DNA from: Actinomycetes bacterium
Lineage (GTDB): Bacteria > Actinomycetota > Thermoleophilia > Gaiellales > F1-60-MAGs149
DNA length: 64,000 bases
Reading direction: 5' to 3'
Assembly (NCBI GenBank): GCA_025360225.1
Contig: JANYCN010000036.1
Span: 1-64,000, forward strand
Part shown: positions 7,880 through 52,529 of the stretch, in pieces
Position numbering within the stretch: the first letter of the stretch is position 1
Layout of the letters: every line of letters begins with the position of its first letter
Position numbers and translations under genes: made by a program
The notes under the pieces: model-generated
Databases searched by the model: none
What the model was told of the DNA's origin: nothing
Seen by the model: the letters and a program-made list of their open reading frames with translations, nothing else

Positions 7880-7880
7880 C

Positions 7881-30421: not shown

Positions 30422-31198
30422 ATGAGCGCAGGCGACCCGGCGATCCCCAGCGAGGGCTGGGCCGTGCTCCACCTCTACTACCTGATCGAGGGCTCTCGAC
30501 GCGATCCTGTCGCGCTCGATGACGTGCAGGCGTCCCTCGCCGCGTTCGTCGCAGAGGACGGCTACCAGGTGCGGGCGATGAGCGTGCTCGGCCAGCGCGC
30601 CGACGTCGGACTGTTGCTCGTCGGACCCGACTTCACGCGGCTCCAGGCGTTCCAGCGAGCGATCGAGCGCTCCGCCGTCGGCGATCGCCTCCGGCCGTGT
30701 CGCGACCTGTCCTTCGTGTCGCTCACCGAGGCGAGCGAGTACATCCCGAACGACGATCCGGCCCGCTGGGCGGAGATGCGCGAGGCGCGGCTGCATCCGT
30801 ACCGGCTCCCAGCGAAGCGGGTGCTCTGCTTCTACCCGATGCTCAAGCGCCGCGCAGCCCATCGCAACTGGTACAGCCTGCCGTTCGACGAGCGCCGACG
30901 TCTGATGGGCGGGCACGGCAAGACCGGTCGTGCGTTCGCGGGTCGGATCACCCAGATGATCACGGCCGCCACTGGACTCTCCGACTGGGAGTGGGGCGTG
31001 ACGCTGTTCGCCGACGACCCGAAGGCGATCAAGGACGTCGTCTACGAGATGCGCTACGACGAGGGTTCGGCCGAGTATGCCGAGTTCGGGCCGTTCGTCG
31101 TCGGCCTCGTCGCGCCGTTGCGTCAAGCGTTCGAGGAGGCCGGGCTCGCGATCAGCGGCACGGTGTGCTCTCCTGGCGTGAACGCCTCGAACGACTGA
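30422..31198 (+). CDS. hemQ: Coproheme decarboxylase, HemQ/ChdC (chlorite dismutase fold)
   Basis: HemQ decarboxylates coproheme III to heme b, ending the coproporphyrin-dependent pathway of Gram-positive bacteria. The 258-residue protein carries the C-terminal family block: FYPMLKRRAAHRNWYSLP, RRLMGGHGKTGRAF with the probable proximal His, ATGLSDWEWGVTLFADDP, IKDVVYEMRYDEGSAEYAEFGPF and VVGLV. ATG 30422 gives the normal length. Its 3' end overlaps the convergent C45-type gene by 76 bp, unusually long for this window. Confidence 0.92.
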   Translation: MSAGDPAIPSEGWAVLHLYYLIEGSRRDPVALDDVQASLAAFVAEDGYQVRAMSVLGQRADVGLLLVGPDFTRLQAFQRAIERSAVGDRLRPCRDLSFVSLTEASEYIPNDDPARWAEMREARLHPYRLPAKRVLCFYPMLKRRAAHRNWYSLPFDERRRLMGGHGKTGRAFAGRITQMITAATGLSDWEWGVTLFADDPKAIKDVVYEMRYDEGSAEYAEFGPFVVGLVAPLRQAFEEAGLAISGTVCSPGVNASND

Positions 31199-32115
31199 CG
31201 CCACAGCGACGACGGCCAGCGGTAGTCCACGCAACGCTGCTCGGGGCGGTACACCGCCGTGTACAGCGTCCCGAAGCCCTCAGCGAACCGCGCGCAGTAC
31301 ACCGGTGCCTCCAGGAACGCCTGGAGGACGCGCTCCTCGCCCGCCGCGAGCACGGGACGCAACGCCCGCTCGCGATCCCGCGAGCGTGAGAGCGCGGCAA
31401 ACGGCTCGGTGCCCTGCTCCTCCTGGTGGTTCGTGACGATCGCCGGTGCGACGTGTGCCGCGCGGCGCCCCGGGCCGATGAACGCCGTCTCGCTCGCTCC
31501 GGACGCGTCGAGGGCGGTGACGTTGTAGGCCATGTGCACGGGCAGTAGCGCGACGCGCGTCATCGCCTCGGCTGTCGTCGAACAGGTCTCCAGCAGGTAG
31601 CGCACGATGATCGCGATCCCAAATCCCGGGCCCGCCGCGCTCGACCCGCCGAAGGTGATCGAGACCGCTAGGCCGTCGTCGTTGATGCCATCGAGCAGGC
31701 CCCAGAGAGCGTCGCTCATGCCGATCACGCGCCGCTCGCCATACGCGGAGGACAGGATCACGGCGTCGAACCGGCTCGGGTCATAGTCATAGTTGCGTGC
31801 GAGCACCGGCGCCCGGCCACGGATTACCGCCTGCGTGCACCCTGCAACGTGGGAGGGCGGACACCACAACGACAGCATCCGCGCCGCGCTGTCCGAGCCG
31901 CCGGCAAGCTCCACGAGGCGCTCCCACACCTCCACGAGCTCGGGCATGTGTTGCCGCAACGCCGCGCGCGATGCGACGAACGATGGTCGGGCAGCGTCGC
32001 CGTCCTTGAGGAACCACGCGCGGTACGCCGGCCACGTCTCGGCGAAGCGCGCTGCAAACTCGCCACCTGGCCGCGCCTCCGCGACGGCGCGGAACGTGAG
32101 CGGCAGCGAGAACAT
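31123..32115 (-). CDS. C45-type NTN hydrolase/acyltransferase-like protein
   Basis: This 330-residue protein resembles the C45 (isopenicillin-N acyltransferase-like) family of Ntn hydrolases, which cleave or form amide bonds after self-processing at a Cys. AGCTQAVI (about residues 110-117) would provide the catalytic Cys, with the typical follow-up APVLARNYDYDPSRFD. Other landmarks are DGINDDGLAVSITFGG, VTALDASG and VTNHQEEQG. The N-terminal ~100 residues are helical. ATG 32115 overlaps the stop of the ATP-grasp gene, so the pair forms one transcript. Substrate is unknown. Confidence 0.78.
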   Translation of the reverse strand: MFSLPLTFRAVAEARPGGEFAARFAETWPAYRAWFLKDGDAARPSFVASRAALRQHMPELVEVWERLVELAGGSDSAARMLSLWCPPSHVAGCTQAVIRGRAPVLARNYDYDPSRFDAVILSSAYGERRVIGMSDALWGLLDGINDDGLAVSITFGGSSAAGPGFGIAIIVRYLLETCSTTAEAMTRVALLPVHMAYNVTALDASGASETAFIGPGRRAAHVAPAIVTNHQEEQGTEPFAALSRSRDRERALRPVLAAGEERVLQAFLEAPVYCARFAEGFGTLYTAVYRPEQRCVDYRWPSSLWRQSFEAFTPGEHTVPLIASPASSNA

Positions 32116-33569
32116 CAGCCCTTCAGCGAGATGGGGGAGTCGTACGGCTTCGGTGGCGTGATCGGTACGCCATGGAACGACCCGCGCAGCGCACCGATCC
32201 ACGAGCGACAGCGATCGGTCAGCTGCAGGTCGTCCGTCTGCATGCGGCCGCGCGCGACGATCACGCCGAGGTCAGCGCCCTTGTAGCGATAGTCGCCCGG
32301 AGACGGAACGCGGAGGTAGAAGACCTCGTCCTCGGTCATCAGGTTGTGCCAGTCGTTCGCCGGGCGCACCCACTGGAAGCTGCCATCCGCGGCGAGGCGG
32401 TGAACGCCGGTGCGTGGCGTGACGGTCAGCTGCTCGACCTGGTCGACGGTCTCTTTCACGATCAGCTGGCTCCAGACGTCGTCGGCACCGATCCGCGCCC
32501 ACCGCTCGTTGATCCCCTCGATGTCGATCTCGTAGTCGACGTCGAGGTACTCGAGCAGGTGGAACAGGAACAGGGGCGCGTCCGAGTAGGCGCCAAGGGT
32601 GACGTGCGTGATCGGCGAGAGGCCAGAGACGCGCGGGTTCAGCTCGCCGAGGTAGAGGTTGCCGGTCTCTGTGTCAACCAGGTAGTCGACCTCGAAGAAG
32701 CCCCGGTATCCCTCCTTCGCGAGCCGGTCGCCGAGGCGGCGGGTCATCGCTCCTGCCTGCTCGCGCTGCGCGTCGGACAGCACCTCGGGATAGAGGTCGT
32801 TGCCGCACCAGCCGCCCTTGTACGGGGTCAGCTCGGGGTGTCCGATGAGCGACGCGACGTACGGTCCGACGATCGTACCGTGTCGCGTGATCACCGCCTC
32901 GACGCAGACCTCGTACGGGCGGATGCGGCGCATCACCTTCAGATCCTGGGAGCCGAGGTCGTCGGCGTCCTTCTCCCAGTCGGCCTGCGTGCGGATGAAG
33001 AACGTCGTGCGTCCCGAGTCGCCGTATGGTGTCTGCACGACCAGGTCCTCACCGAGGTCGGCCGCGCGCGCGAGCGTCATCAGCTCCTCGTACGTCGTTG
33101 CGCGTCCGAGGGTGTTCGGCGCGCTTGGCACGCCGGCGTCGTTGCCGATCTCCGTCGTCACGATCTTCGAGTCGAGGCGCTTTCGCAGCGCCGCCGGCGG
33201 GTGGATGATCTCGAGCCCGATTGCCGCCGCCATCCGCTCGGTCTCCTCGTCGAACATCACGAACGCGGCCTTCCCGCCTGGCCCGTGGTGGTCGACGAAG
33301 TCGGCGACCTCCTTGTGGCCGAGAAGGTAGTTGCAGATCTCCTCAACGGACTGGAACTCGCGGTACGGACGCTCCCGCGGCACGAACACGCGCGGGTGAT
33401 GCGTCTGGAACGAGTCGAAGTAGTTGACGTAGTACAGGTTGCGGACCCACCGGTCGAGCCCGAGCAGGTTGAACGCCGTCGGCGAGACGAAGTGAATTGG
33501 GGTCGTGTTCGTGCGGAAGAACGCACGGACCTCCGCCATTCCGCGCAGCACGGGCCTCGTCGCAGTCAT
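32115..33569 (-). CDS. ATP-grasp ligase (biotin carboxylase/D-Ala-D-Ala ligase-like fold)
   Basis: This 484-residue ATP-grasp protein is of no named family I can place. The core shows AAFVMFDEETERMAAAIGL, the D-loop-like RKRLDSKIVTTEIGNDAGVP, VVQTPYGDSGRTTFFI (glycine-rich ATP loop), the metal/ATP site GFFEVDYLV and LGELNPRVSG with the Glu-x-Asn-Pro-Arg signature. ATP-grasp enzymes join a carboxylate to an amine or similar nucleophile. The C-terminal ~120 residues (after LLEYLDVDYEIDIEG) are an extra domain with no match I know. It overlaps the C45-type gene downstream and lies 70 bases after the NCS1 permease remnant. Confidence 0.8.
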   Translation of the reverse strand: MTATRPVLRGMAEVRAFFRTNTTPIHFVSPTAFNLLGLDRWVRNLYYVNYFDSFQTHHPRVFVPRERPYREFQSVEEICNYLLGHKEVADFVDHHGPGGKAAFVMFDEETERMAAAIGLEIIHPPAALRKRLDSKIVTTEIGNDAGVPSAPNTLGRATTYEELMTLARAADLGEDLVVQTPYGDSGRTTFFIRTQADWEKDADDLGSQDLKVMRRIRPYEVCVEAVITRHGTIVGPYVASLIGHPELTPYKGGWCGNDLYPEVLSDAQREQAGAMTRRLGDRLAKEGYRGFFEVDYLVDTETGNLYLGELNPRVSGLSPITHVTLGAYSDAPLFLFHLLEYLDVDYEIDIEGINERWARIGADDVWSQLIVKETVDQVEQLTVTPRTGVHRLAADGSFQWVRPANDWHNLMTEDEVFYLRVPSPGDYRYKGADLGVIVARGRMQTDDLQLTDRCRSWIGALRGSFHGVPITPPKPYDSPISLKG

Positions 33570-33639
33570 GCGGAGATCATTGCGCGAAAGGGGCCGCGCC
33601 GCAACCCGCGGTCGCGGCCCCCTCTCGCAATCCGATGCG

Positions 33640-35085
33640 TCAGTCGCCGTTCGCGGCCGCGAGCTCGGCGGTCTCGCTCTTCACAGCGCGATAGGCCCAC
33701 GGGACGTAGATCGCGAGCGCGACGATCGGCCCCGTCGCCCAGCTCGTGTCGGTCCCTTCGAGCAGGTGTCTGGCGATCCACCCGGTGGCCGCTGGCGTGC
33801 CGATCGTGAGGAGCGCAGTGCCTACGCCCGCGGTCAACGCGACCCAGGCCGCCACCCGAGAGCCCTTGAAACCCGAGAACGGACTGGCCGAACCACCGTG
33901 CGCCTCGTGCGGGCGGACGTACCACTTGCGCCACCAGAGGTCGACGAGCCAGATCGCCCCGAACGGCCCGACCCAGGCGATCGAGAGGACGATGTAGGAG
34001 TTGAGCTTCGCGAGGAAGGTGCCTGCGTCGTCGATGATCAGCACGTAGACGAGGCCGGCGATCGCGAGCGCGCCGTCGACCAGCGTGGCCTGCCAGCGCT
34101 TCAGCGGTAGGCCCATGGCCTGCGCCGCGAGGCCGGCGGAGTACAGCGTGAGCGCGTTGTTCGAGATCGATCCACCGATCGCCGCGATGATCCAGACGAC
34201 GAACACCCAGTGCGGCATCAACGCCTTCGTGCCAGCGATCGGGTCGAAGATCGCGTTCGTCGAGCGTGATGCGAGCATCACACCGACGAGCCCGAGGAAG
34301 CCCGCGGCGAGGGCTGAGCCGCCGAACACCTGCCAGAAGATCGACCGCGACTGCGTGCTTGTTGGGAGGTAGCGCGGGTAGTCGAGCGCGACGATCATGT
34401 ACGAGTAGCCGCCGGCCCACGCGATCCCCATGCCGACCGACAGCATCTCGATCGTCGTCTTCGTATCGAGACCTTCGCCGAGGTGTTAGCCCCACTTCAC
34501 GTCGCCGACGATGCTGAAGAACATCAGGACGGCGCCCACGCTGAGGGCCACGGTGAAGAACTTCTGGACGACCATCATGGTCGCGTGACCGAGCAGCGGC
34601 AGCAGGATGCAGAGCCCGTAGACGATGATCAGGGAGACCGTCGTTTGCGCCCTGCCGGTGGAGTGCCACCCAAGCTCGTCGAACACCGCGTTCAGCGCAA
34701 ACACGCCGACGGCAACGTCGATGATCTCGTAGATGATGCCGACAGCCCAACCGAGCAGCGCGTTGATCGGCTCGCCCTGAACGCCGAACGTCGCGCGGAT
34801 GCCGATGTGCGTCGGCATGCCGGAACGCGCACCGGCGATCGAGCCGAGAGCGACGGGTACGTAGCTCAGCGCCCCCCCGACGAAGGTCACGACAACTGCC
34901 ACCCAGAGCGGCAGGCCGAGGCTGTAGATGAGCAGCCCGAGCAGCAGGTTGAACGGGTACATGCTCGAGCCGAACCAGAAGACGCCGAGCTGACGCACGT
35001 TCATCGTTCGGGCGTTCTCCGGGACGAACTAGATCCCCCGCTGCTCAACTGCAAAGGTACGGTTGTCGTTGTCGAGCGATGCCAC
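33640..35085 (-). pseudogene. NCS1-family nucleobase/allantoin-type permease, two in-frame stops
   Basis: The full frame, GTG 35085 to the stop at 33640, encodes about 481 codons of an NCS1 permease (VEQRGI, then FVPENARTMNVRQLGVFWFG, RATFGVQGEPINALLGW, GGYSYMIVALDYPRYLP, SNNALTLYSAGL, WVGPFGAIWLVDLW). It is interrupted by TAG at 35029-35031 (where relatives have Glu or Asp in GI-x-FVPE) and by TAA at 34486-34488, after VGDVKWG and before HLGEGLDTKTTIE. Both pieces between the stops are otherwise well conserved, so decay is recent. It lies between the deacetylase and ATP-grasp genes and probably once served that pathway. Confidence 0.88.
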
Positions 35086-35131
35086 CCAGGCCTCCCAGCC
35101 CCGCGTTTCAGAAACGACAGACGTGGAAATC

Positions 35132-36010
35132 CTACGGCAGGTAGGGTCCAAGCGTCAAATCGGGGATGTCCGGCTCGCGCTCGGGGATGTCGGGGTGCGC
35201 CAGGGTCGCCGTCGCGATCTCACCGAGCGGCGCGATCCAGACGTCGCCGCAGGCACGCGCGTGGTCGATCATCTGCCGCACGACCTCGGCACGTGAGGCG
35301 CGTCCAGACAGGAACGGGTGCATCGTGCCGACGACGAGGCCGCCCTCCTTGCGCTGTGCGTCGAGCTCGCTGCGCCACAGCTCGAACACCTTCGACGCCG
35401 GCTCGATGCTGGCACCGATGTTCGGGTCGGGCAGGAAGCCGTACTGCTCCCAGTCGTCGAGCGACCAGTGCGGCGGCAGCTCCGCCATCCGGTGTCCCTT
35501 CACCTTCAACACGTATGGCCGGTCGTCGTCCATCAGGGAGGAGTCGTACTGGAAGCGGTACTCGGCGAGCAGGTCGAGCGTGTGCCAGCTCGCCTGCCAC
35601 CAGGCCGCGCGGTGCCCGACGACGTCGACGCCCTGCGCCTGCAGCGTCTCGAGCGCCCGCTCGAAGTCGCGGCGCTCCTCGTCGGGCGCCATCGTCGGCG
35701 GCGGGTAGTGCAGGTCGGAGTGGTGTCCGACCTCGTGCCCCGCCTCGAGGATCGAGGCGATCAGCTGCGGGTAGCGCCGCGCTGTCCAGCCGGGCACGAA
35801 GAACGTGCCGCGTACCCTCTCCTCGGCGAGGATGCGCATGATCCTCGGCACGCCGACCTTCGGCCCGAACGCCTGGTGGGTCATCGCCATCGCGTCGTTC
35901 CAGCCCGACGGCTTGACCATCAGCACGCCGGTCTCCGCGTCGACGTCGAAGGTGAGCGAGAGCGCGGCGCGCATCCCGGCTGGGAAGGCGGGGGACGGGA
36001 TGCCGGTCAC
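35132..36010 (-). CDS. Polysaccharide deacetylase family protein (PuuE-like group)
   Basis: This 292-residue NodB-type deacetylase has LSLTFDVDAETGVL with the Asp pair near the N-terminus, GTFFVPGWTARRYP, EVGHHSDLHYPPP carrying the HSDLH metal motif, VVGHRAAWWQASWHTLDLL, YDSSLMDDDRPY and GTMHPFLSGRASR. No signal peptide is present, so it acts in the cytosol. That favours the metabolic branch (allantoinase PuuE or related amidases) over cell-wall chitin or peptidoglycan deacetylases. It overlaps the upstream SDR gene by 4 bp and precedes the broken NCS1 permease by 46 bases. Confidence 0.85.
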   Translation of the reverse strand: MTGIPSPAFPAGMRAALSLTFDVDAETGVLMVKPSGWNDAMAMTHQAFGPKVGVPRIMRILAEERVRGTFFVPGWTARRYPQLIASILEAGHEVGHHSDLHYPPPTMAPDEERRDFERALETLQAQGVDVVGHRAAWWQASWHTLDLLAEYRFQYDSSLMDDDRPYVLKVKGHRMAELPPHWSLDDWEQYGFLPDPNIGASIEPASKVFELWRSELDAQRKEGGLVVGTMHPFLSGRASRAEVVRQMIDHARACGDVWIAPLGEIATATLAHPDIPEREPDIPDLTLGPYLP

Positions 36011-36762
36011 GTGAGCGATCCTCCGTTCGGGCTCAGGACCTGGCCGACGAGCGCGCCGGCAGGCTCGGACAGCAAGAACGCCGCGGTGGCGGCGATGTCC
36101 TCGGGGCGGCCGATCCGCCCGAGCGGATGATCCTTGGCGTAGACGCCGACCATCTCGTCATAGGTGATGCCTGCGGCGTCGGCGTCGACCTGCAGCTGCG
36201 GTGTCGCCGTCACGCCTGGCGCGATCGCGTTGATCGCGATCCCGCGCGGGCCGAGATCGCGGCAGGCAGAGCGCACGAGCGTGACGATCCCACCCTTGCT
36301 CGCCGTGTACGCCGCAGCTTCCGGCCAGCCTGACAGCCCCCACTCCGACGCGATGCAGACGATCCGCCCGTAGCCACCCGCGACCATGCCCGCGGCCGCG
36401 GCCTGCACGACCCACAGCGCGCCCTGCAGGTTGACGCGAAGCGTGCGCTCCCAGTCGGCGTCGGTCTCCTCGAGGAACGGCGCCATCGTCATGAAGGCGT
36501 GGTTCGCGACCGCGAGCTCCACCGTGCCGAGCTCGGCTGCCGCCCGGGCGAACCCGGCGTGCACGGCGGCGCGATCGGAGCAGTCGAACGGGACCGCGAG
36601 GCCACCGATCGCGCTCGCGGTCGCCTCCGCGGTTGCCGCGTCGAGGTCGTTCACGGCGACCCGCGCGCCCTCATCTGCGAGCCGCTCGGCGATCGCTCTC
36701 CCGATCCCCTGGCCGGCGCCGGTGACGAGCGCGACGCGCCCTGCAATCCCCTCGAGCCGCAT
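36007..36762 (-). CDS. Short-chain dehydrogenase/reductase
   Basis: This 251-residue classical SDR has the cofactor motif VTGAGQGIGRAIAERL (about residues 12-27), NDLDAATAEA suggesting NAD preference through the acidic residue after strand 2, and the catalytic triad in CIASEWGLSGWPEAAAYTASKGG (Ser, Tyr-x-x-x-Lys). The C-terminus is GQVLSPNGG. Substrate is unknown. It shares its start/stop junctions with the second SDR (upstream) and the deacetylase (downstream), so all three are translated from one message. Confidence 0.88.
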   Translation of the reverse strand: MRLEGIAGRVALVTGAGQGIGRAIAERLADEGARVAVNDLDAATAEATASAIGGLAVPFDCSDRAAVHAGFARAAAELGTVELAVANHAFMTMAPFLEETDADWERTLRVNLQGALWVVQAAAAGMVAGGYGRIVCIASEWGLSGWPEAAAYTASKGGIVTLVRSACRDLGPRGIAINAIAPGVTATPQLQVDADAAGITYDEMVGVYAKDHPLGRIGRPEDIAATAAFLLSEPAGALVGQVLSPNGGSLT

Positions 36763-37445
36763 CAGATCACCGCCCCGGCGTTCGGCGAGATGACCTGGCC
36801 CACAAGGTTGTGCTGCTCCACCGCGAGGGCGAACGTGACGGCGGCGGCGATCTCCTGCGGTGTCACGAGGCGTTGCAGGACGAGCGAGGCGATGTAGGCC
36901 GGATCGCGCATCTCGGTCGTCATCAGCGGCGTGTCCGTCGGGCCCGGGGCAACGCAGTTGATCCGGATGCCCGACGGTGCGAGCTCGAGCGCGAGCGTCT
37001 TCGTGAGGGCGTGGATCGCGCCCTTGCAGAGGGCGTAGTGGATCGCGTCACCGTCGCCGCAGAGCGCGAGCTCCGAGCCGATCGTGCAGATCGCGCCGGC
37101 GCGGCGTGGAGCCATCCGAGCGATCGCTGCGCGCAGCACGTTTCGGGTGCCGGTCACGTGGACGGCGATCATGCGCGCGACCCGCGACTCATCGAGCTCG
37201 AGCAGTGGCACGCGCTCGTAGTAGCCGGCGGCGGTCACCAGGCGGTCGATCGGCCCGAGCTCGGCCTCGATCTGTGCGATCGCGGCCTCGACCGCGGAGG
37301 CGTCGGAGACGTCCGCGACGAGGCCGAGGTCGCACCTCGCCGGGCGGAGATCGATGCCGGCGACCTGGTCACCAGCGGCCTGTAGTCGGGCAACGCAGGC
37401 TGCCCCGATGCCCGATCCCGCACCCGTCACGACGGCGATTCCCAT
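36762..37445 (-). CDS. Short-chain dehydrogenase/reductase, first gene of the minus cluster
   Basis: This 227-residue SDR has VTGAGSGIGAACVARL at the N-terminus, DLRPARCDL after strand 2 and the catalytic region CTIGSELALCGDGDAIHYALCKGA (Ser and Tyr-x-x-x-Lys). It ends GQVISPNAGAVI, close to the ending of the next SDR, so the two are probably old duplicates. ATG 37445 is chosen over 37493 because the fold begins there and TACGAT lies 7 bases upstream. It leads the run of six minus-strand genes to 31123 and diverges from the APC permease. Confidence 0.88.
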   Translation of the reverse strand: MGIAVVTGAGSGIGAACVARLQAAGDQVAGIDLRPARCDLGLVADVSDASAVEAAIAQIEAELGPIDRLVTAAGYYERVPLLELDESRVARMIAVHVTGTRNVLRAAIARMAPRRAGAICTIGSELALCGDGDAIHYALCKGAIHALTKTLALELAPSGIRINCVAPGPTDTPLMTTEMRDPAYIASLVLQRLVTPQEIAAAVTFALAVEQHNLVGQVISPNAGAVI

Positions 37446-37567: not shown

Positions 37568-39055
37568 GTGAGTTCGGCATCTGCTCCCGTCGAGGGGACA
37601 CTCTCGCGCGAGACGAACTGGTGGGGAGCGTTCGTGATCGGCCTCGCCGGCACGATCCTCGTCCTCGGCCTCGTCGGCTACGCGCTCGTCGCCCTCGGCG
37701 GCTTCGCGATCGTCCTCTTCCTCCTCCTGACCGCCGTCGGCGTGTTCCTCTGCTTCTGCCTCGCAGAGCTCGCCGCGGCCTTCCCCGAGCGCGCCGGCGG
37801 CCTGCCGTCGTATGCCTTCGAGACGTTCAAGCCGATGGGCGAGACCTTCGCACGCCACGTCGGTGGCCTCAGCTCGTGGGCGTACTGGCTCGGCTGGTTC
37901 ACCGTCGCACCGATCAACGCGCTGCTCGCCGCGCTGTACCTGAACTCGCTCTTCAGCATCCCGGACGGCAGGACCTGGGGTCCGATCAGCACCAACTTCG
38001 GTGCGCCGGTCACGACCGGCGCGTTCGCGACCGGCGTCGTGATCCTGATCGTCATGTTCATCCCGTGCTGGCTCGGGATCCGCCTTGGCGCGACCTTCGC
38101 GTCGATCCTCGGCGTCGTGTCGATGGTGCCGCTGATCATGCTGATTCTCCTCCCGCTCGCGAAGCCGAGCACGATCGACTTCAGCCGCCTCGACGGGCTC
38201 GGCCTGCCGGAAGGCGTGACGGGGAGCTGGCAGATGGTGCTCGGCTGGGCGTTCATCTTCACCTGGAGCGTCTGGGCGATGGAGGCGGCGGCCTGCTACA
38301 TCGGCGAGTGCCGCGACCCCGCCCGCGACGCGAAGATCGCGATGACCGTCGAGGGCCTTTTCGGGATGTTCGTCTACGGCGCGCTGCCGATCATGCTGCT
38401 ATCGGTGCTCGGCGTTAAGGGTCTCGCCGACCTTAAGACCCCCGGGGACGCGAACGTGATCTTCCAGGGCTACGTGAACGCGATCTTCGGCACGAACGAG
38501 TTCTGGAAGTGGTTCGTCGGCCTTGCGCTCTCGATCGCGCTGATCCTGTCCGTTCTGAACGCGATCATGGGCGCCTCGCGCGGCCTGTGGCAGAACGCTC
38601 ACGACGGCATCCTCCCGCGCTGGTTCGGCAAGACGAACCGCCACGGCGCGCCGTCGACGGCGATGCTGCTCAGCCTCGTCCTCTCGATCGTCGTCCTGAT
38701 GGTCGGCTCCGCGCTGCAGATCTACATCTTCTCAAACATGGGCTACCTGTTCGCCCTGAGCGTCTCGATGATCGGCTACGGCATCTTCCGGGCCCGTCGC
38801 GGCGACATGGAGCGGCCGCTGAAGATGCCCGCGTGGATGGGTCCGACGGCGATCCTCCTCGGTGTCCTCGGGCTCTTGCTGTGGGTAATCGGCGGCTACT
38901 ACGCCGCCGATTACGCGGTCGGCGCCGGGTTCCGCTGGCTCTACTGGGTCGGGCTCCTGCTGCTCGCGCTCTACGTGCCGCTCGTCTTCTGGCGCCGAAT
39001 GGAGGACCGGTCGATGGGCACGACCGAGTACTCCCGCTCCGCGGCGGGCGACTGA
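37568..39055 (+). CDS. APC-family amino-acid/polyamine permease
   Basis: This 495-residue integral membrane transporter of the amino acid-polyamine-organocation superfamily has about twelve to fourteen hydrophobic segments. The N-terminal landmarks are SRETNWWGAFVIGLAGTILVLG and CLAELAAAFPERAGGLPSYA, the conserved helix-1/helix-2 region. Later, WAMEAAACYIGECRDPARDAKIAM and the loop ILPRWFGKTNRHGAPSTAM match the family. Substrate is unresolved. It has a strong promoter under an operator-like palindrome, and a Usp gene follows after 4 bases. Confidence 0.87.
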   Translation: MSSASAPVEGTLSRETNWWGAFVIGLAGTILVLGLVGYALVALGGFAIVLFLLLTAVGVFLCFCLAELAAAFPERAGGLPSYAFETFKPMGETFARHVGGLSSWAYWLGWFTVAPINALLAALYLNSLFSIPDGRTWGPISTNFGAPVTTGAFATGVVILIVMFIPCWLGIRLGATFASILGVVSMVPLIMLILLPLAKPSTIDFSRLDGLGLPEGVTGSWQMVLGWAFIFTWSVWAMEAAACYIGECRDPARDAKIAMTVEGLFGMFVYGALPIMLLSVLGVKGLADLKTPGDANVIFQGYVNAIFGTNEFWKWFVGLALSIALILSVLNAIMGASRGLWQNAHDGILPRWFGKTNRHGAPSTAMLLSLVLSIVVLMVGSALQIYIFSNMGYLFALSVSMIGYGIFRARRGDMERPLKMPAWMGPTAILLGVLGLLLWVIGGYYAADYAVGAGFRWLYWVGLLLLALYVPLVFWRRMEDRSMGTTEYSRSAAGD

Positions 39056-39059
39056 CCGC

Positions 39060-39548
39060 GTGTTCGGTCGGCGAGCTCGGAAGAGCTTCGACGCGCAGCC
39101 CACGGCTCCCTGCGAGGTGCTCCTGGCCTCGGACGGACGACGGGACTTCACGAAGGGGGCGGTCGCCGAGGCGGCCGCCCTCGCCGTGTCCGGCCCGGTC
39201 GCGGTGCTGACGATCGCCAAGATCTACGGGACGGCGTACGGCATCCCAAACCCTGGCCTCCTGCCGTCGAAGGAGGAGGTGAAGGAGCGCCAGGACTGGA
39301 TCGAGCGGGCCGTCGTCGCGCTCCGCAAGAGGGGCGTCGAGGCGGATGGTCAGCTCGCGGCGACGCGGAAGCCCGTCGGCCAGATCATCCGCGTCGCCCG
39401 GGCGCGCGCCGTTCGCTACGTCGTGATCGACGCGTCGCCGGGCACGGGCCTGCGGGGGTTCGTCGAGGGCGACGTCGGCAAGACGGTCGCACGCAAGCTA
39501 CGGTCCTCGGGGATCGAGGTCCGGGTCATCTCGACGGAAGCGCGCTGA
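39060..39548 (+). CDS. Universal stress protein (UspA)-like
   Basis: This 162-residue cytosolic protein has a UspA-like alpha/beta fold: CEVLLASDGRRDFTKGAVAEAA at the start, VLTIAKIYG, a charged helix and VRYVVIDASPGTGLRGFVEGDVGKTVARKL, where the glycine-rich turn replaces the usual GxxGS. Usp domains often accompany transporters, and this one follows the APC permease after 4 bases, so a regulatory role on the permease is plausible. The 3' end overlaps the convergent amidase by 23 bp. Confidence 0.75.
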   Translation: MFGRRARKSFDAQPTAPCEVLLASDGRRDFTKGAVAEAAALAVSGPVAVLTIAKIYGTAYGIPNPGLLPSKEEVKERQDWIERAVVALRKRGVEADGQLAATRKPVGQIIRVARARAVRYVVIDASPGTGLRGFVEGDVGKTVARKLRSSGIEVRVISTEAR

Positions 39549-40926
39549 ACCCGACGGCCTGCTCGATCGCCTCACCGACCGCGAGCACCGACATGTCGGC
39601 GGCGCGCAGTCCGAGCACCTGCAGCGACACCGGGAGACCGTCGTCGGCGAGGCCGATCGGGAGCGCGAGTGCCGGCAGGCCGGCGAGGTTCGCGTCGGGC
39701 AGGTACGGCACCCAGTCGAGCCATAGCGGGTCGATCGGCTCGCCGCCGACCGTCTCGGGGAAGCGCCGCCCGACCGGGAACGCCGTGCAGCCGAGCGTCG
39801 GCGTCAGGACGGCCGTCGCGCCGTGCCAGCGCAGCAACGACACGTACGCCTCGTAGATCGCGTCGCGCGCGAACTGCGCCGTCACGTACTGCTCCGCCGT
39901 GACGGCGCGCCCGAACTCGAGGAAGCCGACCACGCCGGCCGTCAGCTCGTCGTAGCGCTCGGCGTGGTGCGTCGCGTGCTCGACCCAGCCGTCCGCGCTC
40001 GCGATGTACGCCCACGGCTCGATCGAGCGGCCGATCGCCGGCGTGTCATGGACGAGCTCGGCGCCGGCCGACTCGAGAACCGCCAACGTGGTGTCCCACA
40101 CGCGGCGGACGCCGTCGTCGAGCGGCCCGCGCGTGTCACAGACGACGAGGCGCAGGCCGCGAAGCCCGAGCGGCCCGTAGGTCAGCGGCACATCGGCGCT
40201 GTGCGGGTCGCGCACGTCGCGTCCCGCGATCGTCGTGAACAGCAGCCGCGCGTCGGCCACCGTTCGGGCAAGAGGACCGTTTGCAACGAGCGTCTTCCAG
40301 GCGTGTCCGCACGGCTCCCGCGGGATGGCGCCGAACGTCGGCTTGAAGCCGACGACGCCGCAGAACGCCGCCGGGATGCGGATCGACCCGCCGCCGTCGC
40401 CGCCCAACGAGAGCGCCCCCGCGCAGGAGGCGACCGCCGCAGCGGCGCCGCCCGATGACCCTCCCGGGGTTCGCTCGGCGTCCCACGGGTTGCGAGTGAC
40501 ACCGTGCACGGGAGACTCGGTGATGCCCGAGAAGCAGAACTCGGGTGTCGTCGTCGTGGCGAAGATGACCGCGCCGGCCTCCTCCAGACGGATCGTCGCC
40601 TCCGCCGTCTCAGCTGGCACGAAGCCCCGGTTGATCAGCGACCCGGAGGTCGACTCGACGCCCGCGAGCCACTGCGAGTCCTTCGTCGTCACCGGCACGC
40701 CGCAGAGCGGTCCGCCACCGCCGCGGGCGAGCAGCTCGTCGGCGCGTCGTGCGGCGACGCGTGCCCGGTCAGGCACACGGACGGCAAACGGGTTGACGCG
40801 TTCCGAGACGGCGTCCGCTCGCTCCTCGACCGAGGCGAGCGCCTCGACGGCTGAGAGCACGCCGCTGCGCAGCGCCCCTACCAGCTCGGTTGCCGTCATC
40901 GCGAACGGCTGCGTCGTCGTCGCCAC
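39526..40926 (-). CDS. Amidase signature family hydrolase
   Basis: This hydrolase of about 466 residues has the Ser-cisSer-Lys triad of the amidase signature family. Lys lies in GVPVTTKDSQ, the cis-Ser in PGGSSGGAAAA and the nucleophile Ser in GGDGGGSIRIPAAFCGVVGFKP. It cleaves a carboxamide to acid and ammonia or amine; GatA is excluded by context, since there is no gatB or gatC nearby. GTG 40926 is chosen because TACCCT ends 8 bases upstream; ATG 40899 is also possible. It diverges from ettA. Confidence 0.85.
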   Translation of the reverse strand: MATTTQPFAMTATELVGALRSGVLSAVEALASVEERADAVSERVNPFAVRVPDRARVAARRADELLARGGGGPLCGVPVTTKDSQWLAGVESTSGSLINRGFVPAETAEATIRLEEAGAVIFATTTTPEFCFSGITESPVHGVTRNPWDAERTPGGSSGGAAAAVASCAGALSLGGDGGGSIRIPAAFCGVVGFKPTFGAIPREPCGHAWKTLVANGPLARTVADARLLFTTIAGRDVRDPHSADVPLTYGPLGLRGLRLVVCDTRGPLDDGVRRVWDTTLAVLESAGAELVHDTPAIGRSIEPWAYIASADGWVEHATHHAERYDELTAGVVGFLEFGRAVTAEQYVTAQFARDAIYEAYVSLLRWHGATAVLTPTLGCTAFPVGRRFPETVGGEPIDPLWLDWVPYLPDANLAGLPALALPIGLADDGLPVSLQVLGLRAADMSVLAVGEAIEQAVGFSALPSR

Positions 40927-40934
40927 CGATCCCC

Positions 40935-40940
40935 AGGGTA
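40935..40940 (-). promoter_or_regulatory. -10 element of the amidase gene (leaderless type)
   Basis: TACCCT on the minus strand ends 8 bases before the GTG at 40926. This supports that start over ATG 40899. Confidence 0.5.
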
Positions 40941-40999
40941 GCGGCCTGCCGGCCGCCGCCGCCGCCCCTGCGTGCAGCAGCACCGATTCGCCGCGCCGC

Positions 41000-46253: not shown

Positions 46254-47204
46254 ATGGGATACGCGCAGCTGAAGGCCCGGCTCGACCGTGGCGACGTGAT
46301 CGTGCTCGATGGCGGCACCGGGACGGAGCTCCAGCGCCGGGGAGCGCCGATGGATCCGGCGGCCTGGTGTGGCGCGGCAACGCTGCACAACGACGCCTTG
46401 TTGACGGAGATTCACCGCGACTACATCACCGCGGGGGCCGAGGTCGTTACCGCCAACACCTTCGCCTCGAACCGGCTGATGCTGCGTGGCGCCGGGCTCG
46501 CCGACCGGGTCGGTGAGATCAACACGCGGGCGGTGGAGGCCGCGCTGCGCGCCCGTGACGACATGGTTGCAACGCGCGAGGTCGTCGTCGCCGGCTCGCT
46601 GTCGCACATGGTGCCTGTGGCGGAAGGTACCGCTGAGGTGGATCTCGCGAGCGTTCCGCCGGACGATGAGTGCCGCGAGGCGTACGTCGAGGTTGCCGGG
46701 ATCCTGAAGGCTGCCGGTGTCGAGCTGATCCTGCTCGAGATGATGTACCACCCGGTCCGTGTGCGCCTTGCGGTCGAGGCTGCGCTCTCCACAGGTCTAC
46801 CGGTGTGGTTTGGCGCCAGCGCGCGGCGCGGCCGTGACGGGCGCGTCTTGAGCTTCTACCACGCCGGGGACCTACCGCTCGAAGCGATCGCCGACCTGAT
46901 CCCTGCTGGCGCGGACGTGGCGGGCTGCATGCACACCGGGGCGGAGGTGCTCGGGGAGGGGAACGCGATCCTGCGGACGCGGTTTACCGGTCCGCTGAGC
47001 GCGTATCCCGACTCCGGGTACTTCGAGATGCCTGACTGGCAGTTCGTTGACACGATCGAGCCGGATCGGCTCGGGCAGTTCTATGATCGGTGGATCGACG
47101 AGGGCGCCCGCGTGATCGGTGGTTGTTGCGGGCTCACCTTGGAGCACGTGCGTGCCGCAGCCGCGGCGAGGGACAGGTATCGAGAGAGGGAGCAGGCACG
47201 ATGA
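46254..47204 (+). CDS. Homocysteine S-methyltransferase family protein
   Basis: This 316-residue zinc-dependent methyltransferase of the MmuM/BHMT family is a barrel. Motifs are VIVLDGGTGTELQRRG at the N-terminus, VVTANTFASNRL, VVVAGSLSHMVP, GVELILLEMMY, ADVAGCMHTG (first zinc Cys) and ARVIGGCCGLTLEH (Cys-Cys zinc pair). The methyl donor could be S-methylmethionine, betaine or a related compound. Its stop overlaps the agmatinase-family gene by 4 bp, an uncommon pairing that hints at a shared substrate pathway. Confidence 0.87.
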   Translation: MGYAQLKARLDRGDVIVLDGGTGTELQRRGAPMDPAAWCGAATLHNDALLTEIHRDYITAGAEVVTANTFASNRLMLRGAGLADRVGEINTRAVEAALRARDDMVATREVVVAGSLSHMVPVAEGTAEVDLASVPPDDECREAYVEVAGILKAAGVELILLEMMYHPVRVRLAVEAALSTGLPVWFGASARRGRDGRVLSFYHAGDLPLEAIADLIPAGADVAGCMHTGAEVLGEGNAILRTRFTGPLSAYPDSGYFEMPDWQFVDTIEPDRLGQFYDRWIDEGARVIGGCCGLTLEHVRAAAAARDRYREREQAR

Positions 47205-48163
47205 GCGACTCGACGATGTGGACAGGGCTGTTGCACGCCGGTCTTGCGGGGACCTGGCTGAAGACGCCGCACGTTCCACCGGACGCCGCGCAGCTGCGCG
47301 CGCACGGTGCGAGAGCAGCGATCTATGGACTGCCGTGGGACGCAACGAGCATCAGCCGCACCGGTGCGAACATGGGCCCGCGGCAGATGCGTGACGTCTC
47401 GTGTCAGACGACGAGCTACCACGCGCTGTTCGACTTCGATGTCGTGGCCGAGCTGAACCTCGTCGACTGTGGTGACTGTGTGATCGCTCTCGCGAACCCT
47501 GCGAAGACGTTCGCGCGGGCACAGGCGGACATCGCGGCGATCGTTGAGTCCGGTGCGTTGCCCGTCGTTCTCGGCGGCGATCACTCGACGACGATCCCCG
47601 CGGTTCGAGGCGTCAAGCAGCACGTCGCCGACCCCGGTTTCGTGCTGATCGACACGCACCTGGACACGGCGATGGACGTCGGTGGCGAGACGCTGAACCA
47701 CTGTTGCCCGGTGACCCGCGCCGTCGAGGCCGGGTTCGATCCACGGAAGATGACGCTGATCGGCATCTCCGGGTGGCTCAACCCGCGTACGGAGCTCGAC
47801 TACTGCCGCGCGAACGGGATCACCATCATCTGGCTCGAGGAGATCTGGGAGCACGGCACGGCGTGGGCGATCGAGAAGGCGCTCGCCACGTCCCGTTCGC
47901 CCGACGGGATCTACCTGTCGTTCGACATCGATGCGCTTGACATGGCGTTCGCCGTCGGGACGTGCGTGCCGACGCCCGCTGGCCTGACGAGTCGCGAGGC
48001 GATCGAGCTCGTCCGCGGGATCGCCACGCACGGGCTGTGCGGGGTGGACGTCGTGGAGATCGCGCCGACGCTCGACCCGACGATCGCGACGAGCCAGCTC
48101 GGCAACCGCATCGCGCTCGAAGCGATGGCGTTCCATGGCGGTGCCGCGGCGCGACGGCGCTAA
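47201..48163 (+). CDS. Agmatinase/arginase (ureohydrolase) family protein
   Basis: This 320-residue binuclear-manganese ureohydrolase cleaves urea from a guanidino compound. Metal motifs are VLGGDHSTT (His), DTHLDTAMD (Asp-x-His-x-Asp; Thr replaces the usual Ala) and LSFDIDALDMAF (Asp-x-Asp; the usual Pro after the last Asp is Met). These deviations place it outside strict agmatinases, among guanidino-acid hydrolases of unknown preference. GGETLNHCCPVTRAVE replaces the usual H-G-T/S loop. ATG 47201 overlaps the methyltransferase stop; AGAGAGGGAGCAGG upstream can serve as ribosome-binding site. Confidence 0.87.
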   Translation: MSDSTMWTGLLHAGLAGTWLKTPHVPPDAAQLRAHGARAAIYGLPWDATSISRTGANMGPRQMRDVSCQTTSYHALFDFDVVAELNLVDCGDCVIALANPAKTFARAQADIAAIVESGALPVVLGGDHSTTIPAVRGVKQHVADPGFVLIDTHLDTAMDVGGETLNHCCPVTRAVEAGFDPRKMTLIGISGWLNPRTELDYCRANGITIIWLEEIWEHGTAWAIEKALATSRSPDGIYLSFDIDALDMAFAVGTCVPTPAGLTSREAIELVRGIATHGLCGVDVVEIAPTLDPTIATSQLGNRIALEAMAFHGGAAARRR

Positions 48164-48175
48164 GGTGCGGCACCT

Positions 48176-48268
48176 GGGGTGGCAGCTCCCTGGTGGGGGA
48201 TCCGGTCTTCAAAACCGGTAGGGCGGCGTAGCCCGTCGCTTGGTAGGTTCGATTCCTGCGCCGCCTCG
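48176..48268 (+). tRNA. selC: tRNA-Sec (anticodon TCA)
   Basis: A 93-nt tRNA has the selenocysteine architecture. An 8-bp acceptor stem GGGGTGGC/GCCGCCTC pairs fully (two wobbles), the D stem CTCCC/GGGGG has a 4-nt loop, and the anticodon arm CCGGT/ACCGG encloses CTTCAAA with TCA at 48209-48211. A long extra arm includes GGGC/GCCC (48219-48242). The T arm is GTAGG-TTCGATT-CCTGC and the discriminator is G. TAAGGT (48161-48166) 9 bases upstream is a likely -10. The genome must therefore encode selenoprotein machinery (selA, selB, selD), none of which is in the window. Confidence 0.88.
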
Positions 48269-49186: not shown

Positions 49187-49888
49187 ATGGCAACCGTCCG
49201 CCGCCCCGCTCCCCGCCGCGCCGTCCGTCGTGCGAGCCTCGACCGCGAGGTGATCGTTAGCGCTGCCTGTGCCCTCGGTGATCGGGAGGGTCCGGGCGCG
49301 ATCACGATGCGCCGTCTCGGTCGTGAGCTGCACGCTGATCCGACAGCCGTCTACCGGCACTTCGCGAGCAAGGACGAGCTGCTCGTCGCGATGGCCGAGC
49401 GGATGTTCGCCGAGCCGCTCGCTGAGCCGTGCGCGGCGGAAGGCTGGCGGGACGCGCTGCGTCGCATCCTCCACAGCGGGTTTGCGATCTACCAGCGCCA
49501 CCCCGGTGTGGCGGTCGCGCTGGCACGCACGCCCGACGACCTGCCCGCACTGGTCGAGCACGCCGAGCGGGTCGCCGTGGAGCTGTACCGCGCCGGGCTC
49601 GGCGAAGAGGACGGCGCACGGGCGCTGAACGCGATCTTCGACGTCGTCGCTGGCGTCGGGCTGTTTCGGGCCACCACACCGACGTTCTCGACCATCGAGC
49701 ACCGTGCGGCGATGCGCACGACGTTCGCTGAGCTGGACGAGCGCACGCATCCGGCGCTCCGCGGCCTCGCTGATCACCTGTACCCGCCCCGGGACGACGT
49801 CCTCGGGTTCCTCGTCGAGCTCCTGCTCGACGGGATCGAACAACGAGCTGGCCGCCGGGGAGCGGTCGGAGTGGAGGAGCAAGCATGA
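49187..49888 (+). CDS. TetR family transcriptional regulator
   Basis: This 233-residue repressor has an N-terminal helix-turn-helix AITMRRLGRELHADPTAVYRHFASKDELL (about residues 40-67) and a C-terminal TetR_C-like ligand domain with AFAIYQRHPGVAVALART-type helices. It lies first in the peptide-transport operon; its stop overlaps the start of the binding-protein gene. A palindrome in its own promoter supports auto-regulation. The ligand is probably the transported compound or its hydrolysis product (inference). Confidence 0.88.
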   Translation: MATVRRPAPRRAVRRASLDREVIVSAACALGDREGPGAITMRRLGRELHADPTAVYRHFASKDELLVAMAERMFAEPLAEPCAAEGWRDALRRILHSGFAIYQRHPGVAVALARTPDDLPALVEHAERVAVELYRAGLGEEDGARALNAIFDVVAGVGLFRATTPTFSTIEHRAAMRTTFAELDERTHPALRGLADHLYPPRDDVLGFLVELLLDGIEQRAGRRGAVGVEEQA

Positions 49889-51570
49889 CGATCTACAAGC
49901 GCGTGGCCACGGTTGGCCTTGCGATCGCGGTCGCCGCTCTGGCGGCGGCGTGCGGCAAGTCGGTGACGTCGCCTCCGGCTACGACCGCCGCACCGCCACC
50001 GGGCTCGACCGCCGTGACGCCAACCGGCCCCGCCGGCGTACCGACCGACGCCGCAACGATCATGACGCCGACACCGAGTGGCGTGGCCGGCAACGTTGTC
50101 TGGGGCGTCTACCGGGAGACGAATTCCCTTGATCCGCTGATCGCCTTTGATTACCCCGAGAACACGGCGATCGCTGCGCTCTGCGACGCCGTGCTCCGAC
50201 AGGCTCCTGACGGCACGATCGGGCCGGGCCTTGCGACAGCAGCCACGTTCACCGACCCGACCACCCTCGTCCTCGACCTGCGCACCGACGCACGCTTTTG
50301 GGACGGCACGACCCTCACGTCGGCGGACGTCGTCTTCAGCCTCAAGCGCCAGGCTGACCCGAAGGCCGGCGGCTTCTACTCGGGCGCCTTCGTGAACGTC
50401 AGCTCGATCGTTGCGACGGGTCCGTCGCAGGTGACGATCAAGCTGTCGAAGCCCGACGTCTGGCTCCGTGGCGAGCTCGCTGGCACGGCTGGCTTCATCG
50501 TCGAGGAGCGGTACGCGACGACGAAGGGCAAGGACTTCGGCACCGTCAAGGGTGGAACGATGTGCACCGGCGCCTACAAGCTCGACGGTTGGAAGACCGG
50601 CGAAGGCGTCTCGATGGTGCCGAACACGGCGTACTGGGACACGGCGCTCGTGCCGAAGGTGACGCGTCTGACGATCAAGGGGATCCCGGACGACGCGGCG
50701 ATCACCTCAGGGCTCGAGACGGGCGAGCTGAACGGCGTCTACGGGATCCAGCTGTCGACCCTCGACCAGCTCGCCTCGAGCGGCAAGGTGAACGTCTACA
50801 AGGGTCCCTCCTACGGGATTGACGCGTTCATCGTCTCGAGCTTCAAGGGCGCGCTGGGCGACGTGCGCGTGCGCCAGGCCCTCTCTATGGCGATCGACCG
50901 TCCGGGCCTCGTGCAAGCGACGTACAAGGGCGCCGGGTTCCCGGCACGCGCGCTCGGCAACCCGGGCACCTGGTCGTACGGCAAGGACGTCTTCACCGCC
51001 GCCTGGAACGCGCTGCCCGACGCGACGACGAACATCGACGCCGCCAAGGCGCTGATCACGGCGGCCGGTGCTACCGGCAAGACGATCCGGCTCGGCATGT
51101 CAAGCGAGCTACCCGCCCTCGCAACCGAGTCCGCGGCGTTCAAGTCTGCCGCCGAGAGCATCGGGCTGAAGGCTGAGCTCGTGTCCACGTCTGCCGCGAA
51201 CTACATCAACTTCTTCATCGACGCGAAGGCGCGGGATGGCATCGACGGGTTCTTCACGGCGAACTACCCGGACTACGCCGACCCGGCGGCACTCTTCGCG
51301 ACCCTCGCCATGAAGGGCGGCTCGCAGAACTTCTCGGGGTACGAGAACGCCCAGGTGACCGACCTTCTGACACAGGCGCGCGGCGAGCAGGACGACGCCA
51401 AGCGGGCGCAGCTCGTCGCCGACGCGCAGAAGATCATCATGAACGACCTGCCCTGGATCGCCGTCGTCGCACCGGAGACTGCTCTCGTGATGACGAAGGA
51501 CATCACCGGGCCGCCGGCGACCTTCAACTACATGTTCGGTCCCTGGGCCGCGTACCTCGGGAAGGCGTAA
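49885..51570 (+). CDS. Peptide/amide ABC transporter substrate-binding lipoprotein
   Basis: This 561-residue SBP_bac_5 protein binds a peptide, nickel complex or other small amide outside the membrane. It has a lipoprotein signal with lipobox LAAAC (Cys 23), followed by a Pro/Thr/Ala-rich spacer to about residue 70. The fold then shows NSLDPLIAFDYPENTAIAALCD, DLRTDARFWDGTTLTSADVVFSLKR (the family signature, about residues 131-155), GTGAYKLDGWKTGE-like sequence, VRQALSMAIDRPGLVQ and NDLPWIAVVAP. It is translationally coupled to the TetR gene. Confidence 0.9.
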   Translation: MTIYKRVATVGLAIAVAALAAACGKSVTSPPATTAAPPPGSTAVTPTGPAGVPTDAATIMTPTPSGVAGNVVWGVYRETNSLDPLIAFDYPENTAIAALCDAVLRQAPDGTIGPGLATAATFTDPTTLVLDLRTDARFWDGTTLTSADVVFSLKRQADPKAGGFYSGAFVNVSSIVATGPSQVTIKLSKPDVWLRGELAGTAGFIVEERYATTKGKDFGTVKGGTMCTGAYKLDGWKTGEGVSMVPNTAYWDTALVPKVTRLTIKGIPDDAAITSGLETGELNGVYGIQLSTLDQLASSGKVNVYKGPSYGIDAFIVSSFKGALGDVRVRQALSMAIDRPGLVQATYKGAGFPARALGNPGTWSYGKDVFTAAWNALPDATTNIDAAKALITAAGATGKTIRLGMSSELPALATESAAFKSAAESIGLKAELVSTSAANYINFFIDAKARDGIDGFFTANYPDYADPAALFATLAMKGGSQNFSGYENAQVTDLLTQARGEQDDAKRAQLVADAQKIIMNDLPWIAVVAPETALVMTKDITGPPATFNYMFGPWAAYLGKA

Positions 51571-51581
51571 CGCGAGGCCAG

Positions 51582-52529
51582 ATGCTGCGGTTCCTGCTTC
51601 AACGACTCGCGCTGCTCGCGACGACCCTCGTCGTCGCGAGCTTCGCGATCTACTCCGCGCTCTACGCGGCACCCGGAAACCCGATCGCGACGCTCACCGG
51701 TGGCCGCACGCCGACGCCCGAGGCGATCGCCGTCCTCGAGGCCCGCTATCACCTGAACGATCCGTTTCTCGTGCGCTACTGGGACTGGCTCGTCGGCGCG
51801 CTGCACGGCGACCTCGGCGTCTCGATCCCGCTTCACCAGGAGGTCTCGACGCTGATTGGCGAGCGCATCGGCACGACCGCCGCGCTCGTTGCGTACGCGG
51901 CGGTGATCATCCTCGTCGTCGGCGTCGGGCTCGGCATCCTCGGCGCGCTCCGCCCTGGCGCCGTTGACGGCGCGGTGATCGTGTTCACGACGATCTCGGC
52001 CGCGCTGCCTTCCTTCGTCGCGTCGATCGTGCTGTTGCTCGTGTTCGCCGTGAACCTCGGCTGGTTCCCGGCGTTCGGAACCGGGACGGGAGTCGTCGAT
52101 GGGTTTCGGCACCTGACCCTGCCAGCCTGCGCGTTGGCACTGACGTCCATCGCCCTGGTCGCGCGGATCACGCGGGCAGCGGTGCGGGACGAGCTGGGCC
52201 GTGAGCACGTCCAGACCGCCATCAGTCGAGGCATCCCGTTCCCAGCGGTCGTGCGGCGACACGTGTTGCGAAATGCGGCGATCCCGATCACCACCGTCGC
52301 CGGCCTCACGATCGCCTCGCTGATCGCGCTCTCGAGCGTCGTCGAGCGCGCGTTTGCGCTGAACGGGCTCGGCTCGTACCTCGTCCAGGCGGCGTTGTCG
52401 AAGGACTTCGCCGTCGTGCAGGGCATCTCGCTCGTGCTCGTCGTGGCGTTCGTCGTCGTCAACGTGATCGTCGACCTGCTGTACGCCACGCTCGACCCGC
52501 GTGTCGCCCTCGGGAGCCGGGCGACGTGA
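51582..52529 (+). CDS. Peptide ABC transporter permease, DppB type
   Basis: This 315-residue inner-membrane permease has six hydrophobic segments and starts with LRFLLQRLALLATTLVVASFAIYSALYAAPG (described as residues 2-32). The cytoplasmic EAA-type loop is RDELGREHVQTAISRGIPFPAVVRRHVLRNA (about 203-233). HLNDPFLVRYWDWLVGALHGDLGVS is characteristic of DppB proteins. It follows the binding-protein gene after 11 bases and overlaps the DppC gene by 4 bp. Confidence 0.9.
   Translation: MLRFLLQRLALLATTLVVASFAIYSALYAAPGNPIATLTGGRTPTPEAIAVLEARYHLNDPFLVRYWDWLVGALHGDLGVSIPLHQEVSTLIGERIGTTAALVAYAAVIILVVGVGLGILGALRPGAVDGAVIVFTTISAALPSFVASIVLLLVFAVNLGWFPAFGTGTGVVDGFRHLTLPACALALTSIALVARITRAAVRDELGREHVQTAISRGIPFPAVVRRHVLRNAAIPITTVAGLTIASLIALSSVVERAFALNGLGSYLVQAALSKDFAVVQGISLVLVVAFVVVNVIVDLLYATLDPRVALGSRAT

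Follow-up and report, generated by a model that had tools for sequence, protein, structure and literature searches.

The closest described counterpart of the system considered here is the PuuA/PuuD route of diamine catabolism (with PuuB and PuuC), in which an amine is gamma-glutamylated at the expense of ATP and the amide is cleaved later. A second point of reference is NylB, the 6-aminohexanoate-dimer hydrolase, which cleaves 6-aminohexanoyl amides and tolerates various amines as the leaving group (PMC11052090). Asp181 and Asn266 of NylB are named as important for dimer cleavage (PMC7019077), and polyamide 4, a polymer of gamma-aminobutyrate (GABA), is also degraded by a NylB-like catalytic domain (PMC13269358). 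We analyzed a 64,000-nucleotide stretch of DNA from an Actinomycetes bacterium of the class Thermoleophilia (hereafter the window: positions 1 to 64,000 of GenBank contig JANYCN010000036.1, contig C52 of a 3.24-Mb draft genome that is 97% complete). Two adjacent genes at 31123-33569 encode a putative ATP-grasp ligase and a C45-family amide hydrolase or acyltransferase, and we put the probability at roughly 0.55 that they constitute a two-enzyme make-and-break amide unit serving the catabolism of diamines and omega-amino acids.

A conserved pair of putative ligase and amide hydrolase

31123..32115, minus strand: C45 N-terminal-nucleophile (Ntn)-type amide hydrolase/acyltransferase, 330 amino acids (aa), PF03417/NF040521, predicted autocatalytic nucleophile Cys93
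32115..33569, minus strand: putative ATP-grasp ligase, family NF005096/PRK06524, apparently misnamed "biotin carboxylase", 484 aa, 741 bits

The C45 gene almost certainly starts at the ATG at 32115 rather than at the GTG at 32202. Because this start sits one base inside the stop codon of the ATP-grasp gene (TGATG), the two genes are probably translationally coupled. Genome-wide, the ATP-grasp relatives number exactly two (59% identical), as do the C45 homologues, and since these only copies form two adjacent pairs, the pairing goes beyond chance.

GTDB species genomes were scanned for relatives of the ATP-grasp gene, which yielded at least 570 related stretches. Of these, the best 80 were retrieved together with their flanks; they are the closest loci, so the sample leans towards the query. 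Neighboring open reading frames (ORFs) were clustered without prior naming, and the reference hydrolase and amine neighbors were drawn from the same loci, so that counts lean towards them. Adjacency was counted in the 62 loci that have at least 2 kb on each side, with neighbor functions taken from annotations. The sequence-only reading of this window had singled out the pair and left it to a neighborhood search whether the two genes travel together. They do: a hydrolase (C45, NylB-type serine hydrolase or nitrilase-family enzyme) lies within 3 kb of the ATP-grasp gene in 54 of the 62 flanked loci. Per 100 kb, the hydrolase density is 41 within the first kb from the ATP-grasp gene, 9 in the interval of 1-2 kb and only 0.3-0.6 past 4 kb, a drop of about 70-fold. 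A ligase of the probable amide-forming type next to an amide hydrolase is a real unit that is widely conserved. The 54 loci include one from Mycobacterium with a cyanophycinase-like (S51) partner, which was spotted by eye, has no family match and was given no weight.

The biggest neighbor cluster in the 80 loci, after the ATP-grasp proteins themselves, consists of NylB-type serine hydrolases and the second biggest of C45 proteins; further clusters comprise a nitrilase-family enzyme in Alphaproteobacteria and an amidase. NylB-type neighbors match the solved 6-aminohexanoate-dimer hydrolase at 1.5e-51 and 1.7e-71. In a tree of the ATP-grasp relatives, the branches that split off deepest in Actinomycetota, and likewise in Pseudomonadota, include ones with C45 partners; NylB partners fall in a mostly actinobacterial part, and nitrilase-only partners in one alphaproteobacterial clade. 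Partner types switch several times, and all partner labels together require 13 changes. Because one ligase pairs with several unrelated amide-cutting enzymes, which would be hard to explain otherwise, we infer that the ligase makes an amide that its partner cuts.

The ATP-grasp protein, for which the sequence-only reading could name no family, has no Pfam match and scores 741 bits against NF005096/PRK06524 (cut-off 684), a score that denotes membership in a sequence family and not in a function. Its AlphaFold model (pLDDT 90) has the fold of the biotin carboxylase/PurK/PurD class, at 12-17% identity and TM-scores of about 0.5-0.66; among solved structures, biotin carboxylases and PurK come closest. 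Glu309, Asn311 and Arg313, which form an E-x-N-x-R motif, are invariant in the family, as is Lys135. In biotin carboxylase, Glu296 activates bicarbonate. The equivalent residue is replaced in 57 of 57 sequences (by Ala, Val, Leu or Ile, the Q-V-E motif becoming S-G-A/L), and the equivalent of the ATP-binding Lys159 is Gln in 53 of the 57. A biotinyl motif is absent from the ATP-grasp proteins and from 607 ORFs within 4 kb of their genes. We therefore rejected biotin carboxylase identity, and the NCBI family name appears to be wrong. Because these findings argue against bicarbonate and biotin chemistry, and from what is generally established for ATP-grasp enzymes, the remaining reading is that the protein would be a carboxylate-amine ligase. 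Our literature search found the ligase family named nowhere, although it covered mostly openly accessible papers and absence is therefore unproven. Within this coverage, it also returned no paper joining ATP-grasp to 6-aminohexanoate-dimer hydrolase and, among the matches listed, none visibly describing the ligase/C45 pair.

The C45 protein matches PF03417 (1.9e-29) and scores 156 bits against NF040521 (cut-off 85). Cys93, preceded by Gly or Ala, is invariant in 24 pair-linked homologues, and model score and cysteine together place the protein in the C45 family. A search of its sequence alone against solved structures gave no match. The fold search did: the AlphaFold model (pLDDT 92) is closest to isopenicillin N acyltransferase (2x1c, E = 4.8e-14).

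Amine-catabolism genes near relatives of the pair

The company of the pair in other genomes points to amine catabolism, most plainly on annotated plasmids. Shinella and Roseateles plasmids carry, in order, genes for an APC permease, universal stress protein, agmatinase, 2-ketoarginine decarboxylase (AruI), aldehyde dehydrogenase, ligase, C45, D-amino acid dehydrogenase (DadA), a racemase and RidA (an ornithine-racemase-like operon), and a Sinorhizobium locus, judged by similarity, has the same arrangement. Roseobacter combines GabT, a nitrilase-family enzyme and an Orn/Lys/Arg-type decarboxylase with ligase, C45 and a peptide-type ABC transporter. On Rhizobium symbiotic plasmids, we found a decarboxylase, ligase, C45, ABC transporter, amidase, regulator and NylB-type serine hydrolase, in two cases beside nifHDK. 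The decarboxylase gene lies upstream of the ligase in Roseobacter, Rhizobium, Cupriavidus and a gammaproteobacterium, and downstream in Arthrobacter. One context of the ligase/NylB pair in Actinomycetota comprises GabT, aldehyde dehydrogenase, a CaiB-type coenzyme A (CoA) transferase and acyl-CoA dehydrogenase, which has the look of a route from 5-aminovalerate to glutaryl-CoA. Other contexts contain agmatine deiminase, N-carbamoylputrescine amidase (AguB) and copper amine oxidase, or a decarboxylase; in mycobacteria, agmatine deiminase, AguB, GabT and an amine oxidase are found near the ligase. The sequence-only reading had likened the pair to gamma-glutamylation, and these diamine, arginine and omega-amino acid catabolism genes fit the comparison.

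In the scheme that we infer for the chemistry, substrates and direction of the ligase, and for diamine use by this organism, we start from what was observed: the pairing, the gene coupling, the folds, the catalytic residues and the gene company. The ATP-grasp protein would activate a carboxylate with ATP and join it to an amine, and the C45 protein would cleave itself at Gly-Cys93 and then hydrolyze that kind of amide. Across the family, the role would lie in the catabolism of arginine- and lysine-derived diamines and omega-amino acids (agmatine, putrescine, cadaverine, GABA and 5-aminovalerate). There the amide would protect or handle the amine during oxidation of the other end, as gamma-glutamylation does in the PuuA-PuuD route, via unrelated enzymes. 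In other lineages, a serine hydrolase of the NylB type or an enzyme of the nitrilase family takes the place of C45 or accompanies it.

The NylB-type partners offer a view of the acyl group. Ser112, Lys115 and Tyr215 are kept in all 49 ligase-linked proteins of this type, position 181 is acidic in 45 of them, and position 266 is Asp in 47 (Asn in NylB). Judged from these residues, the acidic pocket would fit a positively charged acyl group such as omega-aminoacyl. A more specific proposal, to which we give a low probability, is that GABA, 5-aminovalerate or a similar omega-amino acid is what the ligase joins to an amine or to another omega-amino acid, and that the C45 or NylB-type partner cuts the product. 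The amide would then be a natural miniature nylon dimer, and NylB-type "nylonases" would derive from a widespread amine-catabolic amidase rather than represent a function arisen on nylon. If 5-aminovalerate protects cadaverine, the cycle would be self-protecting, with one amide giving two end-product molecules.

Three further features of these loci deserve mention. Four Rhizobium and Sinorhizobium plasmids carry decarboxylase-ligase-C45-ABC-amidase-NylB-type operons, two of them beside nifHDKE, which raises a symbiosis question. Ligase-linked decarboxylases of about 920 aa were noted at seven loci; when such decarboxylases, from loci L064, L107 and L108, were scored against the NCBI models for lysine, arginine and ornithine decarboxylase, they missed every cut-off by a wide margin. 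Three gammaproteobacterial loci have, in the vicinity of the ligase, a gene of the MttB family that resembles trimethylamine methyltransferase (at 7230-8777 of locus L081).

The second module and other genes of the window

33580..33630, minus strand: strong hairpin, by folding energy, in the gap between the NCS1 remnant and the ATP-grasp gene
33640..35085, minus strand: NCS1-type permease gene, broken by in-frame TAG and TAA, second module (PF02133, N-terminal half)
35132..36010, minus strand: polysaccharide-deacetylase/PuuE-like hydrolase, second module (PF01522; weak PuuE match; solved relative 3rxz)
36007..36762, minus strand: short-chain dehydrogenase/reductase SDR1, an oxidoreductase, second module (PF13561)
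36762..37445, minus strand: SDR2 oxidoreductase, second module (PF00106)
37568..39055, plus strand: APC-superfamily permease, possible associated transporter (PF13520)
39060-39548: UspA-like gene, follows the APC permease
39526..40983, minus strand: amidase-signature enzyme, likely associated with the ATP-grasp/C45 pair (PF01425)

The sequence-only reading had proposed a single pathway of six minus-strand genes with mostly overlapping ends. All six genes (C45, ATP-grasp, NCS1, deacetylase, SDR1 and SDR2) are present on that strand, and ends overlap by 1-4 bases at SDR2/SDR1, SDR1/deacetylase and ATP-grasp/C45. The run is not intact, however: the NCS1 gene is interrupted by an in-frame TAG (about 35031-35029) and a TAA (34488-34486), its remaining frame being intact, and a 70-base gap with a hairpin (-46.2 kcal/mol, z -3.07 for the fold of 33565-33650) precedes the ATP-grasp gene. 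This hairpin is a possible terminator or attenuator, with no U-tract. In the genome with the nearest ATP-grasp orthologue (77%) the NCS1 homologue is intact and Glu occupies the TAG site; the intact homologue at locus L142 is 50% identical. Selenocysteine or other recoding was rejected, since neither stop is a TGA and an ordinary Glu stands at the site of the TAG in the homologue. Point mutations, as in a recent pseudogene, or draft-genome errors are the simpler reading.

In the closest relative, NCS1-SDR2-SDR1-deacetylase lie together on contig C14 and ATP-grasp-C45-carbamoylase on contig C64; at locus L142, an SDR1 homologue (65%) is ordered with SDR2 and the deacetylase. Within the class, 18 deacetylase loci of relatives all lack the ATP-grasp gene, and the other ligase loci examined all lack the deacetylase. 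Because gene order in relatives splits the two sets, the NCS1 gene is broken and a hairpin lies between them, the six genes are two modules and not one pathway. Of the proposal that an imported N-heterocycle is temporarily amidated, the make-and-break amide survives with the conserved pair, whereas the imported heterocycle is not supported, NCS1 lying in the separate module with its gene broken.

In many relatives the immediate neighbor of the deacetylase is an agmatinase-type ureohydrolase, at times accompanied by NCS1, by a carbamoylase-type gene or by both SDRs, and module homologues with a ureohydrolase also occur on Roseovarius and Rubrobacter plasmids. The deacetylase scores 61 bits against the PuuE allantoinase model TIGR03212, far below the cut-off of 424.6. 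We suggest that the second module may be an independent catabolic set whose substrate is a guanidino, ureido or cyclic amide compound. The SDR-SDR-deacetylase set is conserved in Actinomycetota and Alphaproteobacteria (five loci), and its substrate appears undescribed. Homologues of a window ureohydrolase of the agmatinase/arginase family (47090-48163), which adjoins a selenocysteine tRNA (48176-48268), share clusters with this set at two loci. The window also contains a further amide-uptake set, a peptide-type ABC transporter operon at 49885-56574 that encloses an amidase (53371-54792 region).

Among the genes that the sequence-only reading had placed at the flanks, the amidase at 39526..40983 may belong with the pair, to judge by its homologues (45-49% identity): the 80 loci contain seven, and each of these lies no more than 2 kb from the ATP-grasp gene. 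Membership of the carbamoylase at 29071 is unproven, as it adjoins the pair only in the closest relative and reflects synteny there. The order APC permease-universal stress protein also precedes ligase/C45 in Shinella. The permeases are only 25% identical; we rejected their equivalence on this basis, and the common gene order may be convergence.

Alternative readings and comparison with known systems

Several points weigh against a role in amine catabolism. Amine genes lie near only 24 of the 80 loci, and even this count is inclined towards neighbor families that were picked from the loci in which they were counted. A hydrolase of the reference set was not found in 8 of the 62 flanked loci, and the arginine-to-GABA route of the Shinella operon looks complete without the ligase/C45 pair. 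The window pair has less telling company than its relatives, namely an APC permease with a UspA-like gene and an amidase. We found no decarboxylase, GabT or oxidase beside the window pair or the second pair of this genome, which has amine oxidases and GabT homologues elsewhere. No measured substrate was found for any ligase of this particular family (NF005096), and C45 enzymes can transfer acyl groups instead of hydrolyzing.

The last point bears on the possibility that the pair makes or remodels a secreted or stored small amide, such as a dipeptide-like amine conjugate or a signal, with C45 acting as an acyltransferase rather than a catabolic hydrolase. Rhizobium operons that link decarboxylase, ligase and C45 with a peptide-type ABC transporter and amidase near nif genes would suit such a product, as would the penicillin acyltransferase that is the nearest C45 fold. 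We nevertheless regard it as unlikely, since NylB-type or nitrilase-type hydrolases take the place of C45 in other loci and the GabT, aldehyde dehydrogenase, CoA-transferase and agmatine deiminase neighbors are catabolic. A narrower form of the amine-catabolic reading would have gamma-glutamyl as the acyl group and the pair as a strict functional substitute for PuuA/PuuD. The gene company is of the type seen in polyamine catabolism, and an acidic residue of the NylB pocket could bind gamma-glutamate by its alpha-amino group, but most linked NylB-type proteins have two pocket acids (181 and 266), which should disfavor the glutamyl carboxylate and make this form rather improbable.

The remaining two alternatives fare worse. 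A six-gene pathway, in which NCS1 takes up an N-heterocycle that is reduced, then opened by the deacetylase and held as an amide until its release, would explain the co-directional genes with overlapping ends, and both modules separately accompany ureohydrolases and permeases in other genomes. It is highly improbable given the different contigs in the closest relative, the mutual absence of ligase and deacetylase from each other's loci, the broken NCS1 gene and the strong hairpin between the modules. Similarly, the family name of NF005096 and the top-ranking biotin carboxylase and PurK structures would suggest a biotin carboxylase or another bicarbonate-fixing enzyme; with Glu296 lost in every sequence, Lys159 changed to Gln in nearly all and no biotinyl motif nearby, we give this very little credence.

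Should the amine-catabolic reading hold, the at least 570 related stretches (several hundred genomes) encode, under the wrong name of "biotin carboxylase", one half of an amine-handling cycle, and this cycle would solve the problem behind gamma-glutamylation a second time, by unrelated means. It would also provide a candidate natural substrate class for the NylB family, a matter of interest for polyamide recycling and for the often-repeated account of how nylonases evolved.

The pair resembles described enzymes in parts. The ATP-grasp protein shares its overall fold and the E-x-N-x-R motif with biotin carboxylase, PurK and PurD, but differs from them in its low identity, its replaced bicarbonate/biotin catalytic residues and the absence of a biotin carrier. 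The C45 protein has the fold and the Gly/Ala-Cys nucleophile of isopenicillin N acyltransferase and peptidase family C45, yet it is only 14-15% identical to the acyltransferase, lies outside a penicillin cluster and is tied to an ATP-grasp ligase. In many Actinomycetota the ligase partner is NylB-type (1.7e-71), with the catalytic Ser, Lys and Tyr kept; these proteins differ from NylB in the change of Asn266 to Asp and in adjoining the ligase and amine-catabolism genes rather than sitting on a nylon-degradation plasmid, and none is encoded in the window. With PuuA/PuuD, the pair would share ATP-driven amide formation, later cleavage and a context of diamine catabolism and GABA aminotransferase. 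It would do so with an ATP-grasp ligase in place of the glutamine-synthetase-like PuuA and with C45, NylB- or nitrilase-type enzymes in place of PuuD, which has a class I amidotransferase fold. The pair is therefore not a member of the PuuABCD system but would work in a similar way.

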